Positions 14,481 to 48,753 of a DNA stretch of 64,000 nucleotides are shown piece by piece. The notes under the pieces are model-generated. The model did not search any database. It was given only the letters and a program-made list of their open reading frames with translations, and was not told the DNA's origin. A program made the translations under genes and the position numbers. Each line of letters begins with the position of its first letter. Positions within the stretch are counted from its first letter, which is position 1. Source of the DNA: Haladaptatus paucihalophilus DX253 (GTDB lineage: Archaea > Halobacteriota > Halobacteria > Halobacteriales > Haladaptataceae); the NCBI RefSeq assembly GCF_000376445.1, contig NZ_AQXI01000001.1, forward strand, positions 1,210,962 to 1,274,961, given 5' to 3'.

Positions 14481-14727
14481 ATGCCGACGTTGATGGACAC
14501 CTACATCGAAAACCGCGAACGCGTGCAACCGAAGCACGCCAACAACTACGAGACCGCCCACGGGGGAATCGTGATGAAGTGGATGGACGAAATCGGGGGC
14601 GATGTCGGCGATGCGACTCGCGGGGGAGACGTGCGTCACCGCCAACGTGGACCAGATGGACTTCCAACGACCGATTCCCGTCGAGGATACCACGGTCATC
14701 CAATCGTACGTCTACGACACGGGACGA
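14481..14727 (+). pseudogene. Acyl-CoA thioesterase (hotdog fold), frameshifted and truncated
   Basis: Frame 1 reads MPTLMDTYIENRERVQ..., then ETAHGGIVMKWMDEIGG (the family's substrate-channel motif). Homology continues in a shifted frame as AMSAMRLAGETCVTANVD... and IPVEDTTVIQSYVYDTGR. One extra G in the five-G run at about 14595-14599 explains the shift. After about 14725 the similarity stops completely and unrelated lower-GC sequence begins. Roughly the first half of a 150-residue enzyme remains, so the gene is dead. Confidence 0.85.
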
Positions 14728-14740
14728 GGCACGCTTCTCC

Positions 14741-16033
14741 CTACCGAACGATATACGGCCCGTTTCGCGTCCCGAAAACCAACGATTGTGGGCTGTTTTC
14801 GGTCGAATTACTGCCGGTCGACCTTGACCTCGAAGTTACACGACCGACCCGCAACCGGTAGTATTGTTTATTCTGCGACGGTTTCTTACGCGACCACTGT
14901 ATGATGGCATCCCCCTCCAGCGTGAACCCTTCTTCGAGCGAAACGTTCGACACACGAATCGCGGAACCGCCGTTCGTGACTTGAATGTCCTGTCCCACCG
15001 AATCGCCGTTGAGGCGCATGTTGCTCAACCGTGTGGTTGCCGCGGACTGTGCGCGAGCATAGATCAGTAAGTCGGTATACGGCCCGGTATCGAGCGGTGA
15101 GTAGGTCAAGTCGTTTGTGCCCTGATTGCTGTAAGTGACGATTTGGGACCGTGGATCGTACGTAAGCGTGAACGGACGGGTCTCGTTGTTTTGCCAGTCC
15201 TTGTTCGCTCGGTTTTTCGGGTTGTTGATCGTTGGACCCAGTCGGTGCTCTTTCACGCCGGACCCGTGTCCCCCGATACGCCCCTGCGCGATGAACGACT
15301 GCTGCATCCGAATCGAGTTGTACTCCTGTTGTGTGAGCGTCGTTATCGTGGGGTCGGACGTCTGTCCAGCCCCGGCCTGTAGCGATACCCGTGTCGTATC
15401 CACGTCGCTCCACCCGGCCGGGGAAACGCGCGAATTCAACGTGAGATCGAGGTCGAAGGCGAGGCGGTCGCCGTATGCGGCGGTCGAACCCGTCGGATAC
15501 TCCAACTCGAACACGAAATCGACCGGAGCCGACCCGAGTGGTGGAGAAAGCTGTATCGTCTGGTCGGGTTGTGTGGCGACCGTGCTGTACGACGCGAGCG
15601 AAGTGCTACTGCCGAAGAAGTAGCCGAGTAACGTCCCGTCCCGTTCGAGAGACGCCCTGAACTGTAGTTCGTCGTCGAGTTCGCCCCCGTCGGCGGGGGA
15701 CGTGTTCGACTCGTCGGGTTCCGTCGTCCCCTCGCCAGTCGTCACCGTCGATACGCCGAGGCTGATCGACTCGCCACCGATGCTCCCGTCGTTCGTGAGT
15801 TGTGTTTGGTGTGTGTACGAACCGCCGGAAGCGAGAACGAAGTCTCCCGCGGCAGGGATTCGGTCGGCATCGCCACCCTGGAGTTTAAGATCGAGATCAT
15901 CCTCGTCGGTCGATCCACCCGTCGAATCGGAGACGTCATATGTCGCGGTGCCCGTTCTCGTCATCGACCACGAATTGGCACCGACCGCGAATAGTTGGAG
16001 AGCGCGCCGTCTCGATAGCTTCCTCATCGTCAC
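14741..16033 (-). CDS. Secreted SipW-system surface protein (TasA-like start, choice-of-anchor-like C-terminal domain)
   Basis: A 430-residue exported protein starting MTMRKLSRRRALQLFAVGAN, a Tat/SipW-type signal with RRR. The region TATYDVSDSTGGSTDEDDLDLKL resembles the mature start of TasA/camelysin proteins. A second domain (about 240-375: SIRMQQSFIAQGRIGGHGSG, WQNNETRPFTLTYD, FTLEGDAII) looks like the secreted choice-of-anchor domains. The last ~50 residues are basic and Ser-rich and may be read-through past a broken end near the pseudogene. It is the last gene of the sipW operon. Confidence 0.7.
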   Translation of the reverse strand: MTMRKLSRRRALQLFAVGANSWSMTRTGTATYDVSDSTGGSTDEDDLDLKLQGGDADRIPAAGDFVLASGGSYTHQTQLTNDGSIGGESISLGVSTVTTGEGTTEPDESNTSPADGGELDDELQFRASLERDGTLLGYFFGSSTSLASYSTVATQPDQTIQLSPPLGSAPVDFVFELEYPTGSTAAYGDRLAFDLDLTLNSRVSPAGWSDVDTTRVSLQAGAGQTSDPTITTLTQQEYNSIRMQQSFIAQGRIGGHGSGVKEHRLGPTINNPKNRANKDWQNNETRPFTLTYDPRSQIVTYSNQGTNDLTYSPLDTGPYTDLLIYARAQSAATTRLSNMRLNGDSVGQDIQVTNGGSAIRVSNVSLEEGFTLEGDAIIQWSRKKPSQNKQYYRLRVGRVTSRSRSTGSNSTENSPQSLVFGTRNGPYIVR

Positions 16034-16085
16034 CCTGAGCGACTATGGAACCCAGATATTTGTTCCTTTCCCACTAAAATAGAAT

Positions 16086-16553
16086 CTACTCCATTTGGAT
16101 GAAAAAATACCCTGCACTACCGATGAGCACGCCACCAAGGACGATAGCGTAGAGATACGCACTACGCGAGAAAACCGGGTGAACCAGATAGCCGTATAGC
16201 GGAACCGATAGGACGACTTCGCCACGAATTTGGTCCCGATGGACGACGAAGGAATCCGGATACGTTCGAGCATCGCCTTTCGTCACGAATCCATCGGTCG
16301 TCTTCCGAACGATTCGATGAGTGATGAGTTCACCGTTCTGTACGAAGGTGATCGCATCCCCGGATTCGTAGTGGCTCGAGTCGTGTGTGTAAACCACGCT
16401 CCCGGGCTTGAGCGATGGCGTCATACTGCCGCTCAGGACGACATAGCTTCCCACGCCGGGCAACAGCGTGAACAGGATCTGTCCGACTATCGGGAGTAGG
16501 AGGATTCCGATAACGATCCAACCGAGTCGGGAGGGACGGAAGAACCTCATCAA
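16086..16553 (-). CDS. Signal peptidase I, SipW/ER type
   Basis: A 155-residue S26 peptidase with an N-terminal TM, the catalytic Ser43 in VLSGSMTPSLKPG, and His79 in ELITHRIV, the Ser/His arrangement of ER-type and SipW enzymes (no Lys). GFVTKGDA is box E. A C-terminal TM (YLYAIVLGGVLIGSAGYFF) follows. It sits between two genes for SipW-type exported proteins, so it is likely their dedicated processing enzyme. Confidence 0.88.
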   Translation of the reverse strand: MMRFFRPSRLGWIVIGILLLPIVGQILFTLLPGVGSYVVLSGSMTPSLKPGSVVYTHDSSHYESGDAITFVQNGELITHRIVRKTTDGFVTKGDARTYPDSFVVHRDQIRGEVVLSVPLYGYLVHPVFSRSAYLYAIVLGGVLIGSAGYFFIQME

Positions 16554-16600
16554 ACAGAATACGACTGCAACATATTTAAAATAAGTATGAGACTTTTCGA

Positions 16601-17296
16601 TTATTGGCTACTGTCCTGATTGAGCGTGAAGTTGACCGCGATGTCCACGCCGTCGGCCATCACGTCCTCGTCGGCTCCGGTCAGATTACCGGTCGTATCG
16701 GCACCGGTCCAGTACGCAGCGTTGTCGTTTGCGACTTCGAGGTCGAGAGTGAAGTACGTCGTACTCGAACCGTTCGGAGCGGGTGCTTGCAGATTGTCGA
16801 GCACGTTCGTCTGTTCGTTCACCTCTTGAAGGTCGACGTACCCGTTACCATTCGTGTCCGTCACGTTGGTCGTGATGTCGTTGAGGACGGTCCCCTGCGG
16901 GTTCTCGTACTGCATCGCCTGAACGCGAATGAGGCTCCCCGTCTCGGACGCGTTCAACTCGTTGGCGAGCTCGGAGTCGTTCGGTTCGGCGCGAAGGTCG
17001 TTTTCCGTATAGTTGAAGCCGATTTCGAGATGATCCGCCTCCGTCGAGCCTTCGTTCGTCAGCGCGTACGTGTGATTCACCTGGTCACCTGGTTGTGCAT
17101 TGATCAGGTTGAAATCCTCCGTTGTGCCATTCGCGCTGCCGTTAATTGCGAGATCCATCGTTCCTGCTTCGACCGTGTTCCCCGTGCTTGAGTCCGTGTC
17201 GCTCCAGAACGCCCATGTACCGACACCAGCGAGAATACCACCGACGATGACTACCAACGCGAGCGCAATTTTGGTTCTTCTGTTGTTTATTTCCAT
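16601..17296 (-). CDS. TasA/camelysin-like protein with SipW-dependent signal peptide
   Basis: A 231-residue exported protein. The N terminus has basic residues, a hydrophobic segment (IALALVVIVGGILAGVG) and then TWAFWSDTDSSTGNTVEAGTMDL, the hallmark of SipW substrates such as TasA (biofilm fibre) and CalY. The mature part is Asn/Thr/Asp-rich with several N-x-S/T sites. It is the first gene of the operon with sipW and a second secreted protein, suggesting an extracellular fibre or surface structure. Confidence 0.85.
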   Translation of the reverse strand: MEINNRRTKIALALVVIVGGILAGVGTWAFWSDTDSSTGNTVEAGTMDLAINGSANGTTEDFNLINAQPGDQVNHTYALTNEGSTEADHLEIGFNYTENDLRAEPNDSELANELNASETGSLIRVQAMQYENPQGTVLNDITTNVTDTNGNGYVDLQEVNEQTNVLDNLQAPAPNGSSTTYFTLDLEVANDNAAYWTGADTTGNLTGADEDVMADGVDIAVNFTLNQDSSQ

Positions 17297-17438
17297 CTCT
17301 GTAGTATATTACACAATGAACAGAGGGTTAAATCTTTTCTAGCTCAAATCATATTAATTATAATTATTCAAAAATATGCGAATATATATAGGAACGGAAC
17401 TGTGGTACGATGCGGGTCGAAGAGCGAAATTCCTCAGG
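17297..17438. promoter_or_regulatory. AT-rich promoter region and right margin of the sipW island
   Basis: This 142-base stretch is very AT-rich, particularly 17341-17395, and contains several TATA-like elements that could drive the leftward sipW operon. GC content rises sharply again from 17400 on, marking the right edge of the island. Confidence 0.5.
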
Positions 17439-17948
17439 TCAGAGTTCCCGCGCCGAATCCGGGTTCTCCACGTCCCACAGATATTCCGGTAAAAAGGCGT
17501 CCAAGTGGTCGATGATTTTGCGGTCGCTGGCGTTCATTCCCTCGCAGTGGTCCCACGCCGACTCGCGGATATCGACGTGCATCTCGCCGTTTTCCGTGCG
17601 AATCGAGACGGGGTAGACGAAACAGCGGGCGGGCTTCCAGCCGTTTTCGGCCTGCAACTCACAGAGGCCGTCCCCGCGGAGGAAGTGACAGGCACAGCCG
17701 TCTTCTGCGGTTTCGTCGTGGTCTTTCTCCTCGCGGCGCACGAAATCCTCGCAGCGGAACTCGGTAGTCGCATCGTTCAGGTCTGCGTGTTCTCCCAACT
17801 CGAAGAACTCGCGGTCGTACAGCATGACGCCGTGGTGGCAACACCACGTACAGCTATCGACGCACTCGAAGGTGAGGTCGGGGTCGAACTCCACGACCGC
17901 CTCGCGGCCCGGATGCACTTCGACGCGAACCGGAGTGTCTGCGCTCAC
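17439..17948 (-). CDS. YkgJ-family cysteine-cluster protein
   Basis: A 169-residue protein with the family's cysteine pattern: CVDSCTWCCHHGVMLYD, FRCEDFVRRE, GCACHFLRGDGLCEL and ARCFVYPVSI. These cysteines are expected to bind a metal or Fe-S cluster (CxxxCxxCC core). The function of the family is unclear. It ends just right of the sipW island, and a tiny gene overlaps its start by 4 bases. Confidence 0.85.
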   Translation of the reverse strand: MSADTPVRVEVHPGREAVVEFDPDLTFECVDSCTWCCHHGVMLYDREFFELGEHADLNDATTEFRCEDFVRREEKDHDETAEDGCACHFLRGDGLCELQAENGWKPARCFVYPVSIRTENGEMHVDIRESAWDHCEGMNASDRKIIDHLDAFLPEYLWDVENPDSAREL

Positions 17949-18263: not shown

Positions 18264-19832
18264 ATGAACAGCACAGGCGACGTGTTCGGGAACTCCGAAC
18301 TCGGGAAACGGGTCGATATCGACGCGCAACTCGACGAGATGGGTCTCGATATGGAAGAGATAGAGCGACGGAAGTCGTTTCTCGGCCTCGACGCGGAGGA
18401 CGTCAGCCGACTGTCCGCCCTCCGCCCGACGTTCGAAGCCAACCGCGGGACGGTGGCCGACCAATTTTACGAGAATTTGCAGGAACACGAGGAGACACAC
18501 GAAATACTCGCGAACTCCACGCGCGGTATCGAATCGCTAAAATCGACACAGGGGGAGTACCTCGTCACCCTCGCCGACGCGACCTACGACGAGGAGTACG
18601 TCCGAAACCGGGCGCGAATCGGAAAGCTCCACGACATGCTGGACATGCCGTTGAACCACTACATCGGTCAGTACAGCATCTACTACGACCTCATCGGGTG
18701 TCTGTTGAAAGAGCGACTGGAGGATGACCTCGAAGCGACGATTCGAGAGCACGTCTCGCCCGCGGCGACCGACGGCGGGCAACTCGCCGGGACCACGACC
18801 GACGTGGACGAACTCGTCTCCGAGGTCCGGGAGTCGGCACACGAGCGCTTCGAGGACATGCTCTCGGTGCTCCGCGTGCTCAACCTCGACATGCAGATAG
18901 CGGCGGACACCTACGTCCACTCGCACAGCCAGCAGATGAAAGAGGAGATAGAGCGCTCGCGCACCCTTCGGGAGTCGACCGAAGAGCACGTTCTCGACGC
19001 ACACGAGTCCGCCGCCGACGTCGCCGAGAGCTCCGTCGAAATCAACCAACTCACCGAGGAGCAGTCGGAGAACATGGAGCGAATCGCCAGCGAAGTGTCC
19101 ACCCAGAGCGCCACGGTCGAGGAGATCGCCGCCAGCGCGAACGAAGTGGAACAGAAGAGCCGCGAATCCCAGGAACTCGCCGAGGAGGGGAAGAAACTCG
19201 GCCAGCGCGCGATCAGCGCGACCGAATCCACCGAGGACGCCCGCGAGAGCATGGTGGACGACGCGGAGGAACTCCAGAACGCGGTCAGCGAAATCGGCGA
19301 CGCGGTGCGGATGATAAACGACGTCGCGGACCAGACGAACCTCCTCGCGTTGAACGCCTCCATCGAGGCGGCGCGCGCCGGAGAGGCTGGCGACGGGTTC
19401 GCCGTCGTCGCCGAGGAAGTCAAATCGCTCGCCGAGGAGTCGAAGGCTCGGGCCGCCGAAATCGAGGCGATGGGCGAACGCATCGAGAACCGAACCGAGA
19501 GCACGCTCGACAGCCTCGGCGAGAGCGAAGCCTCCATCTCCGAAACGGTCACCGCCGTCCAGCGGACCAGTGAAAAGCTCGAACGAATCGTGGACTCGGC
19601 CACGGAAACCGCGGTCGGCATGGAGCAGATTACCGCCGCGACGGACGAGCAGGCGTCGAGCACCCAGGAGGTTGCGACCATGATCGACGAGGCGGCGGAG
19701 ACGTCCGCCCGTATCTCGACCGAGGTGTCGTCCATCGCGGAGACGAACGAGCAACAGGCACGGACCATCGAGGAATTGGACGAAATCGTCGCCAATCTCG
19801 GGAAAGAAGAGAGCGATATCGGACGAATCTGA
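18264..19832 (+). CDS. hemAT: HemAT-type globin-coupled aerotaxis transducer
   Basis: A 522-residue soluble transducer. Residues 30-185 form a globin-coupled sensor: [11 protein letters not shown] contains the proximal heme ligand His123, followed by [15 protein letters not shown]. The C-terminal half is a methyl-accepting coiled coil with the conserved signalling tip [37 protein letters not shown] (split here over two heptads). It senses oxygen and signals to CheA. I prefer the ATG at 18264 over the TTG at 18246 because of the TATA spacing. No che genes are adjacent. Confidence 0.94.
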
Positions 19833-48193: not shown

Positions 48194-48753
48194 GCCATCG
48201 ACGGAGAGAGTTTTCCGAGTTCCGGGACGCGGGCGACCGCCACCCCGAGAATCCAGCTCTGGCGAACCGGCGAGGAGATACCGACCGCTTGGTCGTAGTA
48301 ACCGTTCGCGTCCCCCTTCGTGATGAATCCGGCGTGCGGTGCCGGACAGTTCCGGAGTTCGGCGCAGTTGTCGGCACCCGCGAGATACGCAGGGTCCCCC
48401 TCGTCGTACCAGTTCTCTCCCGACGAAACCCAAAATCGCGCCCGATGAAGGACCGGAATCGCCGACTCGTTTCCGTAGGGTCGATAGACGAGGACGTTGC
48501 CGGGACCGCCGAGCGTCTGGAACCCGTCCCGTTTACCGTTTCGTGCGGAGACGACCCCATCGCGGCTGTCCGGCGGCGTGACGCGGTGTTTGTCCATTAC
48601 CACGACCACGTCGGACGTGTTGATGTGCGGCGACATGCTTCCGCTGATGACGGTGTACGCGGGCGGCCAGACGCCCAGCGTTGCGACGAAGAGCACGCTC
48701 AGGACGAGAAGGAGTGCGACCACGCTAGCGAGCAATCGTCGGAGGCTGAACAC
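48073..48753 (-). CDS. S26 signal peptidase I with aberrant C terminus
   Basis: A 226-residue peptidase with one N-terminal TM, catalytic Ser39 in VISGSMSPHI, His103 in IPVLHRARFWV, and KGDANGYYDQ box E. Similarity ends near residue 185 (ILGVAVARVPELGKL); the last ~40 residues are antisense to the convergent aspartoacylase and are basic and Ser-rich, unlike any family end. The natural stop seems lost. Catalytic residues remain, so it may still be active. Confidence 0.75.
   Translation of the reverse strand: MFSLRRLLASVVALLLVLSVLFVATLGVWPPAYTVISGSMSPHINTSDVVVVMDKHRVTPPDSRDGVVSARNGKRDGFQTLGGPGNVLVYRPYGNESAIPVLHRARFWVSSGENWYDEGDPAYLAGADNCAELRNCPAPHAGFITKGDANGYYDQAVGISSPVRQSWILGVAVARVPELGKLSPSMAHSSRSSATLSNFPPPQTVDSRVNEYRMPSRSVSTSCRIS

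Follow-up and report, generated by a model that had tools for sequence, protein, structure and literature searches.

We found that Haladaptatus paucihalophilus DX253 (genome G000) carries a haloarchaeal operon of the tasA-sipW type that was probably gained cleanly between two convergent genes, and that the thioesterase gene beside it probably decayed in separate events. We put this explanation as a whole at about three chances in four. The locus occupies positions 14481 to 17438 of the window, by which we mean the entire 64,000-nucleotide stretch of contig NZ_AQXI01000001.1 that was analyzed. It starts with a broken hotdog thioesterase gene, which is followed, up to position 17296, by three minus-strand genes of lower GC content. 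From right to left, these genes encode a TasA-like protein, a SipW-type peptidase, and a choice-of-anchor W protein. An initial annotation had listed a TasA-like gene, a SipW-type gene, and a second secreted gene, and all three are present, with the TasA-like gene on the right and the second secreted gene on the left. The gaps inside the module are about 50 bp, so a single transcript is plausible. The locus corrects the tempting reading that an island split a gene. It is also a clean example of a putative fiber module dropped between convergent genes, with the decay of the neighbor as a separate matter.

Insertion site and decay of the thioesterase gene

The thioesterase, of the YciA/PaaI hotdog acyl-CoA type, is a pseudogene at positions 14481 to 14727 on the plus strand that retains roughly the first 82 of 145 codons. 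Two open reading frames remain, at 14481 to 14594 (frame 1) and 14600 to 14727 (frame 2). Pfam 4HBT matches both, the first weakly (E = 0.034), and similarity to the genes of relatives stops at about position 14726. We compared the remnant with the intact gene of a congener, G001 (L051:3463-3900, 145 amino acids), to which it is 95.5% identical over 245 nucleotides. The DNA alignment revealed a frameshift at 14595 to 14599 on the plus strand, where the window has GGGGG and G001 has GGGG; this lesion is additional to the truncation and was absent from the initial annotation. The truncation itself is a deletion of 230 bp relative to G001, with its junction at 14725 to 14726 and a 2-bp CG overlap (microhomology). 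The blastn diagonals pair window position 14726 with L051 position 3707 and window position 14725 with L051 position 3936, a shift of 230 bp. The deletion took the 3′ part of the thioesterase gene, its stop codon, and about 35 bp of spacer. Its end falls some 15 bp short of the choice-of-anchor W stop codon, which was spared, and therefore the module seems to start exactly where the thioesterase is truncated. Thus, the gene is indeed broken where the module starts, as had been noted, but it was broken by a separate deletion and a frameshift and not by the module.

It is very unlikely that both lesions are assembly errors in a gene that is really intact. The frameshift does fall in a run of G and the sequence comes from one assembly. 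However, the two lesions are independent, one of them is 230 bp long with a clean 2-bp overlap, and the completeness of the genome is rated at 99.95%. The genome retains a 46% identical thioesterase paralog and other 4HBT proteins, and only weaker paralogs are found in five of the nine Haladaptatus genomes examined (G003 to G006 and G008). Thus, the thioesterase is dispensable in Haladaptatus, and the label of housekeeping gene that it had been given does not strictly apply.

In G001, the same module lies at the same site next to a full 145-amino-acid thioesterase that ends in TAG, and the last stop codon of the module is 51 bp past the thioesterase stop. The site is empty in G007 and G002, where the thioesterase and the convergent YkgJ-like gene have overlapping stop codons and nothing lies between them. 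In G010, which belongs to another genus, the thioesterase and YkgJ-like genes are also close convergent neighbors. Thus, the module sits between two old convergent neighbors. In the window, the right-hand one of the pair, the ancestral convergent neighbor of the thioesterase, is at 17439 to 17948 on the minus strand. We take its product to be a YkgJ-like cysteine-rich protein; none of the family models searched matched it above the cutoff, and it shares 92 to 95% amino acid identity with its counterparts in G001 and G004. The locus is adjoined by a gene for a methyl-accepting chemotaxis protein (window 18264 to 19832, plus strand), which is found at the same site in G001, G003, and G004 and is unmatched in G002 and G007.

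The claim that the thioesterase gene was split by insertion of the module draws on the window, where thioesterase similarity ends some 15 bp short of the third module gene's stop codon. The intact G001 gene, with its stop codon and its 51-bp spacer before a module in the identical position, rules this claim out, and we assign it a negligible probability. In addition, the module-free relatives place the entry point after the thioesterase stop. Both halves of a split gene should flank the insert, yet the 3′ half was found neither beyond the module nor elsewhere in the genome. We also looked for marks of a mobile element. The edges share no 10-mers, the module has no integrase or transposase gene, positions 5 to 30 kb of the window contain no tRNA, and no Rfam RNA lies at the module edges. 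The sequence comparisons indicate that the module came to lie between two convergent genes without disrupting either and that the thioesterase decayed separately.

The right edge had been described as an AT-rich boundary of the island. The zone is AT-rich (GC, about 0.48 at 17.0 to 17.5 kb). It is the region upstream of tasA-sipW-anchW (17297 to 17438, minus strand), and it is conserved in G001, identical GCTAGAAAAGATTTAAC included. We therefore rejected the idea of an insertion scar. The region contains a candidate BRE/TATA-like GAAAAGATTTAACC at about 17326 to 17342 and would fit an archaeal promoter for the operon.

Origin and history of the operon

When composition was computed per gene, the module genes had a GC content of 0.55 to 0.59 and a GC3 of 0.65 to 0.72, compared with 0.62 to 0.69 and 0.79 to 0.89 for the named flanking genes. 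The lower-GC block of three genes is therefore present, and its GC and GC3 are not equal to those of the flanks. Values are likewise low in the G001 copy and in the homologous genes of G008 (Haladaptatus caseinilyticus), and thus the module has low GC and GC3 as a persistent feature. Among other haloarchaea, G001 and G008 have all three genes grouped, and a corresponding trio occurs in another genus (L122-L124, L128-L130). Lateral acquisition, as proposed in the initial annotation, is likely: it is supported by the low GC3, by the patchy distribution in the genus, with clean empty sites in G002 and G007, and by the presence of a homologous set of three genes on a plasmid of H. caseinilyticus.

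The gain of the operon, between the thioesterase and YkgJ-like genes, would date to the common source from which the G000 and G001 arrangement derives, or to an earlier time. The 1-bp insertion and the 230-bp deletion would have arisen separately in the lineage of the window, most simply after the gain, an order that is based on one intact relative, G001. However, the closest relative in the tree counts against this order. In a tree of ZIP, DUF2071, and PPC, G000 groups with G004, then with G001, and then with G002 and G007. G004, the sister of G000 with full support, has neither the module nor the thioesterase at the site, where it has another membrane-protein open reading frame instead (L163:3820-4480, G004:C22). 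The ZIP matches in G003, G005, G006, and G008 also mark loci with neither. Thus, genes turn over frequently in the interval between the ZIP and YkgJ-like genes in Haladaptatus. A single gain in the ancestor of G000, G004, and G001 with a loss in G004 would fit.

A different history is a serious contender, if short of even odds: the thioesterase and the module may have been exchanged as a block by homologous recombination between the G001 and G000 lineages after G000 and G004 had split, and the thioesterase of the recipient may then have decayed. The identity of G000 and G001 at fourfold sites is 89% (33/37) in the thioesterase remnant, 84% in tasA, and 81% in sipW, compared with only 58 to 65% in SDR, DUF2071, ZIP, MCP, and PPC, and the lack of the block in G004 also favors an exchange. 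However, the choice-of-anchor W gene, which is in the middle of the block, has 66% fourfold identity, equal to that of the vertical flanks. Moreover, codon constraint in expressed genes could lift the similarity of tasA and sipW, and the absence of the block from G004 may reflect nothing more than a loss. Block transfer bears on the history alone, and the function that we propose for the operon is compatible with it. The similarity between G000 and G001 is patchy along the locus (window 14481 to 14727 and 16086 to 17296 against L051), being high in the remnant, sipW, and tasA and not in the choice-of-anchor W gene; recombination or codon constraint could produce this pattern.

The three proteins and their proposed function

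The right-hand gene (16601 to 17296, minus strand) encodes a TasA/camelysin-like secreted protein of 231 amino acids that is a candidate fiber subunit. It matches Peptidase_M73/camelysin (PF12389; 43.5 bits, cutoff 22.5, 4e-11), and its SipW-type signal matches cognate_SipW (TIGR04088; 32.5 bits, cutoff 19, 6.5e-8). Genome-wide, it is the only TIGR04088 protein, and it adjoins the only TIGR02228 peptidase above the cutoff. A profile of 19 homologs retrieved only Bacillus TasA among solved structures (5of1/8aur; 7.7e-12 and 1e-11). When the predicted fold was searched with Foldseek, ranks 1 to 3 were all TasA (probability, 1.00; TM, 0.40 to 0.48, which is below 0.5). The model, with a mean pLDDT of 72 and low confidence for the N-terminal strand (residues 1 to 41), predicts the TasA jelly-roll fold, and the Pro-Gly box is conserved. 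The protein scored 33.8 bits against the TasA equivalog NF046066, for which the cutoff is 450; it is a TasA-family relative and not an ortholog of Bacillus TasA.

The middle gene (16086 to 16553, minus strand; the ATG is probably at 16550) encodes a SipW-like ER-type signal peptidase of 155 amino acids. It matches sigpep_I_arch (TIGR02228) with 71 bits (cutoff, 51.85; 1e-19), the sole match above the cutoff in the genome. There is a weak second TIGR02228 match at window 48592 to 48726 (minus strand), in a 236-amino-acid frame. Among ten homologs, SxSMxP and THR (H79) are invariant and KGD is conserved. In keeping with the family, we take the serine of SxSMxP to be the nucleophile and the histidine of THR, not a lysine, to be its partner. 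The score against the Bacillus SipW equivalog NF046067 was 60.7 bits (cutoff, 190), and the peptidase is SipW-like and not an ortholog of Bacillus SipW.

The left-hand gene (14741 to 16033, minus strand) encodes a secreted accessory protein of 430 amino acids with a twin-arginine/SipW-type N terminus, a TasA-like first domain, and a C-terminal choice-of-anchor W domain (choice_anch_W NF041928; 95.3 bits, cutoff 45, 3.5e-27). It has homologs in G001 and G008, among other genomes, and homologs of the protein give TasA-profile matches. There is no TapA homolog in the module, and the third gene matches only choice_anch_W. A search of solved structures with its sequence returned no significant match. 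Its model (mean pLDDT, 70) has a C-terminal beta-sandwich, and the fold matches of this part are weak and lectin-like (CFA/I pilin fusions and concanavalin A; TM, about 0.25 to 0.5), which is only a hint of adhesion. We consider it a speculative and rather improbable idea that Haladaptatus builds TasA-type fibers with this protein at the tip or base as a subunit of two domains, a TasA-like pilin domain bearing a lectin-like jelly roll. If true, the choice-of-anchor W domain, which is little understood, would serve in adhesion in archaeal fibers.

Choice-of-anchor W proteins are present in 42 of the 392 haloarchaeal genomes sampled (about 11%), and most have a SipW-type N terminus and lie among other SipW-type proteins. 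As descriptive counts, at least two SipW-type secreted proteins occur in 33 of 43 loci, and SipW is within the fetched stretch in 20 of 43; these loci include those of the window, G001, and G008, and contig ends cut some of the stretches. G001 has a second operon with a tasA-like gene and a SipW gene (L056:5095-6970, G001:C30); these two genes flank one for a second, diverged secreted protein of the SipW type. Choice-of-anchor W genes, or fragments of them, are also found next to SipW-like peptidases elsewhere in the genus, at L107:4844-5674 (G008:C5:544000-555000) and L095:4611-7401 (G004:C9). At the latter locus, three related proteins are encoded consecutively along with a SipW.

By analogy with Bacillus, the TasA-like and choice-of-anchor W proteins would be exported, and the coencoded ER-type (Ser/His) SipW peptidase would remove their SipW-type signal sequences. 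The TasA-like subunits would then polymerize outside the cell, with the freed N-terminal strand of one inserting into the next. The choice-of-anchor W protein may be a minor initiator, anchor, or tip subunit in place of Bacillus TapA or CapP. The basis of the analogy is the mechanism of TasA, TapA, SipW, and CapP (PMC9674648, PMC10151520, PMC13082335), including the chaperone role of CapP in Bacillus cereus (PMC13082335). The biofilm or surface-structure module of the initial annotation thus stands as a SipW/TasA-type module, and it would be expected to form fibers.

It is possible, but in our judgment unlikely, that the operon instead encodes a SipW-processed surface or secreted set that does not polymerize, for example, a soluble enzyme or S-layer-associated proteins. 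Donor-strand exchange is attributed to the TasA-like protein by analogy, its Pfam family is named for a camelysin metallo-endopeptidase, and many haloarchaeal choice-of-anchor W loci have several large SipW-type proteins. However, the nearest solved structures are the TasA fiber and monomer, and both the conserved Pro-Gly box and the SipW partner argue for a fiber subunit. We know of no fiber in Haladaptatus, and our literature search found no direct study of haloarchaeal TasA/SipW or of archaeal choice-of-anchor proteins. With its compact TasA/SipW set, present in a single copy, this haloarchaeon would be a simple system in which to ask whether haloarchaea make TasA-type fibers.

Comparison with known systems

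The module probably belongs to the known class of SipW-processed TasA-type fiber operons. Pyrobaculum has archaeal bundling pili (AbpA), which PMC9674648 and PMC10151520 cite as an archaeal TasA-related donor-strand fiber. The Pyrobaculum system is from another phylum and gave no significant sequence match; the match of AbpX to the TasA-like profile (E = 0.32) was dropped as evidence. The B. cereus sipW-tasA, capP, and calY genes also provide two TasA-type proteins and SipW with a chaperone-like partner (PMC13082335), but CapP is a different protein and the B. cereus transcription units are separate. In the B. subtilis tapA-sipW-tasA operon, as here, there is a fiber subunit with a SipW signal, a dedicated ER-type SipW in the middle, and one more secreted accessory protein (PMC9674648, PMC10151520). 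However, the order here is tasA-sipW-accessory, the host is an archaeon, the accessory protein has a choice-of-anchor W domain and is not a TapA homolog, and the TasA-like protein is only about 13% identical to TasA in the fold alignment. The same trio is found on the plasmid of H. caseinilyticus (OOF89_RS18875-RS18885), where it is annotated as choice-of-anchor W, TasA family protein, and signal peptidase I. It differs from the operon described here in being plasmid-borne, in having its choice-of-anchor W gene divergent from tasA-sipW, and in its tasA, which is 62% identical.
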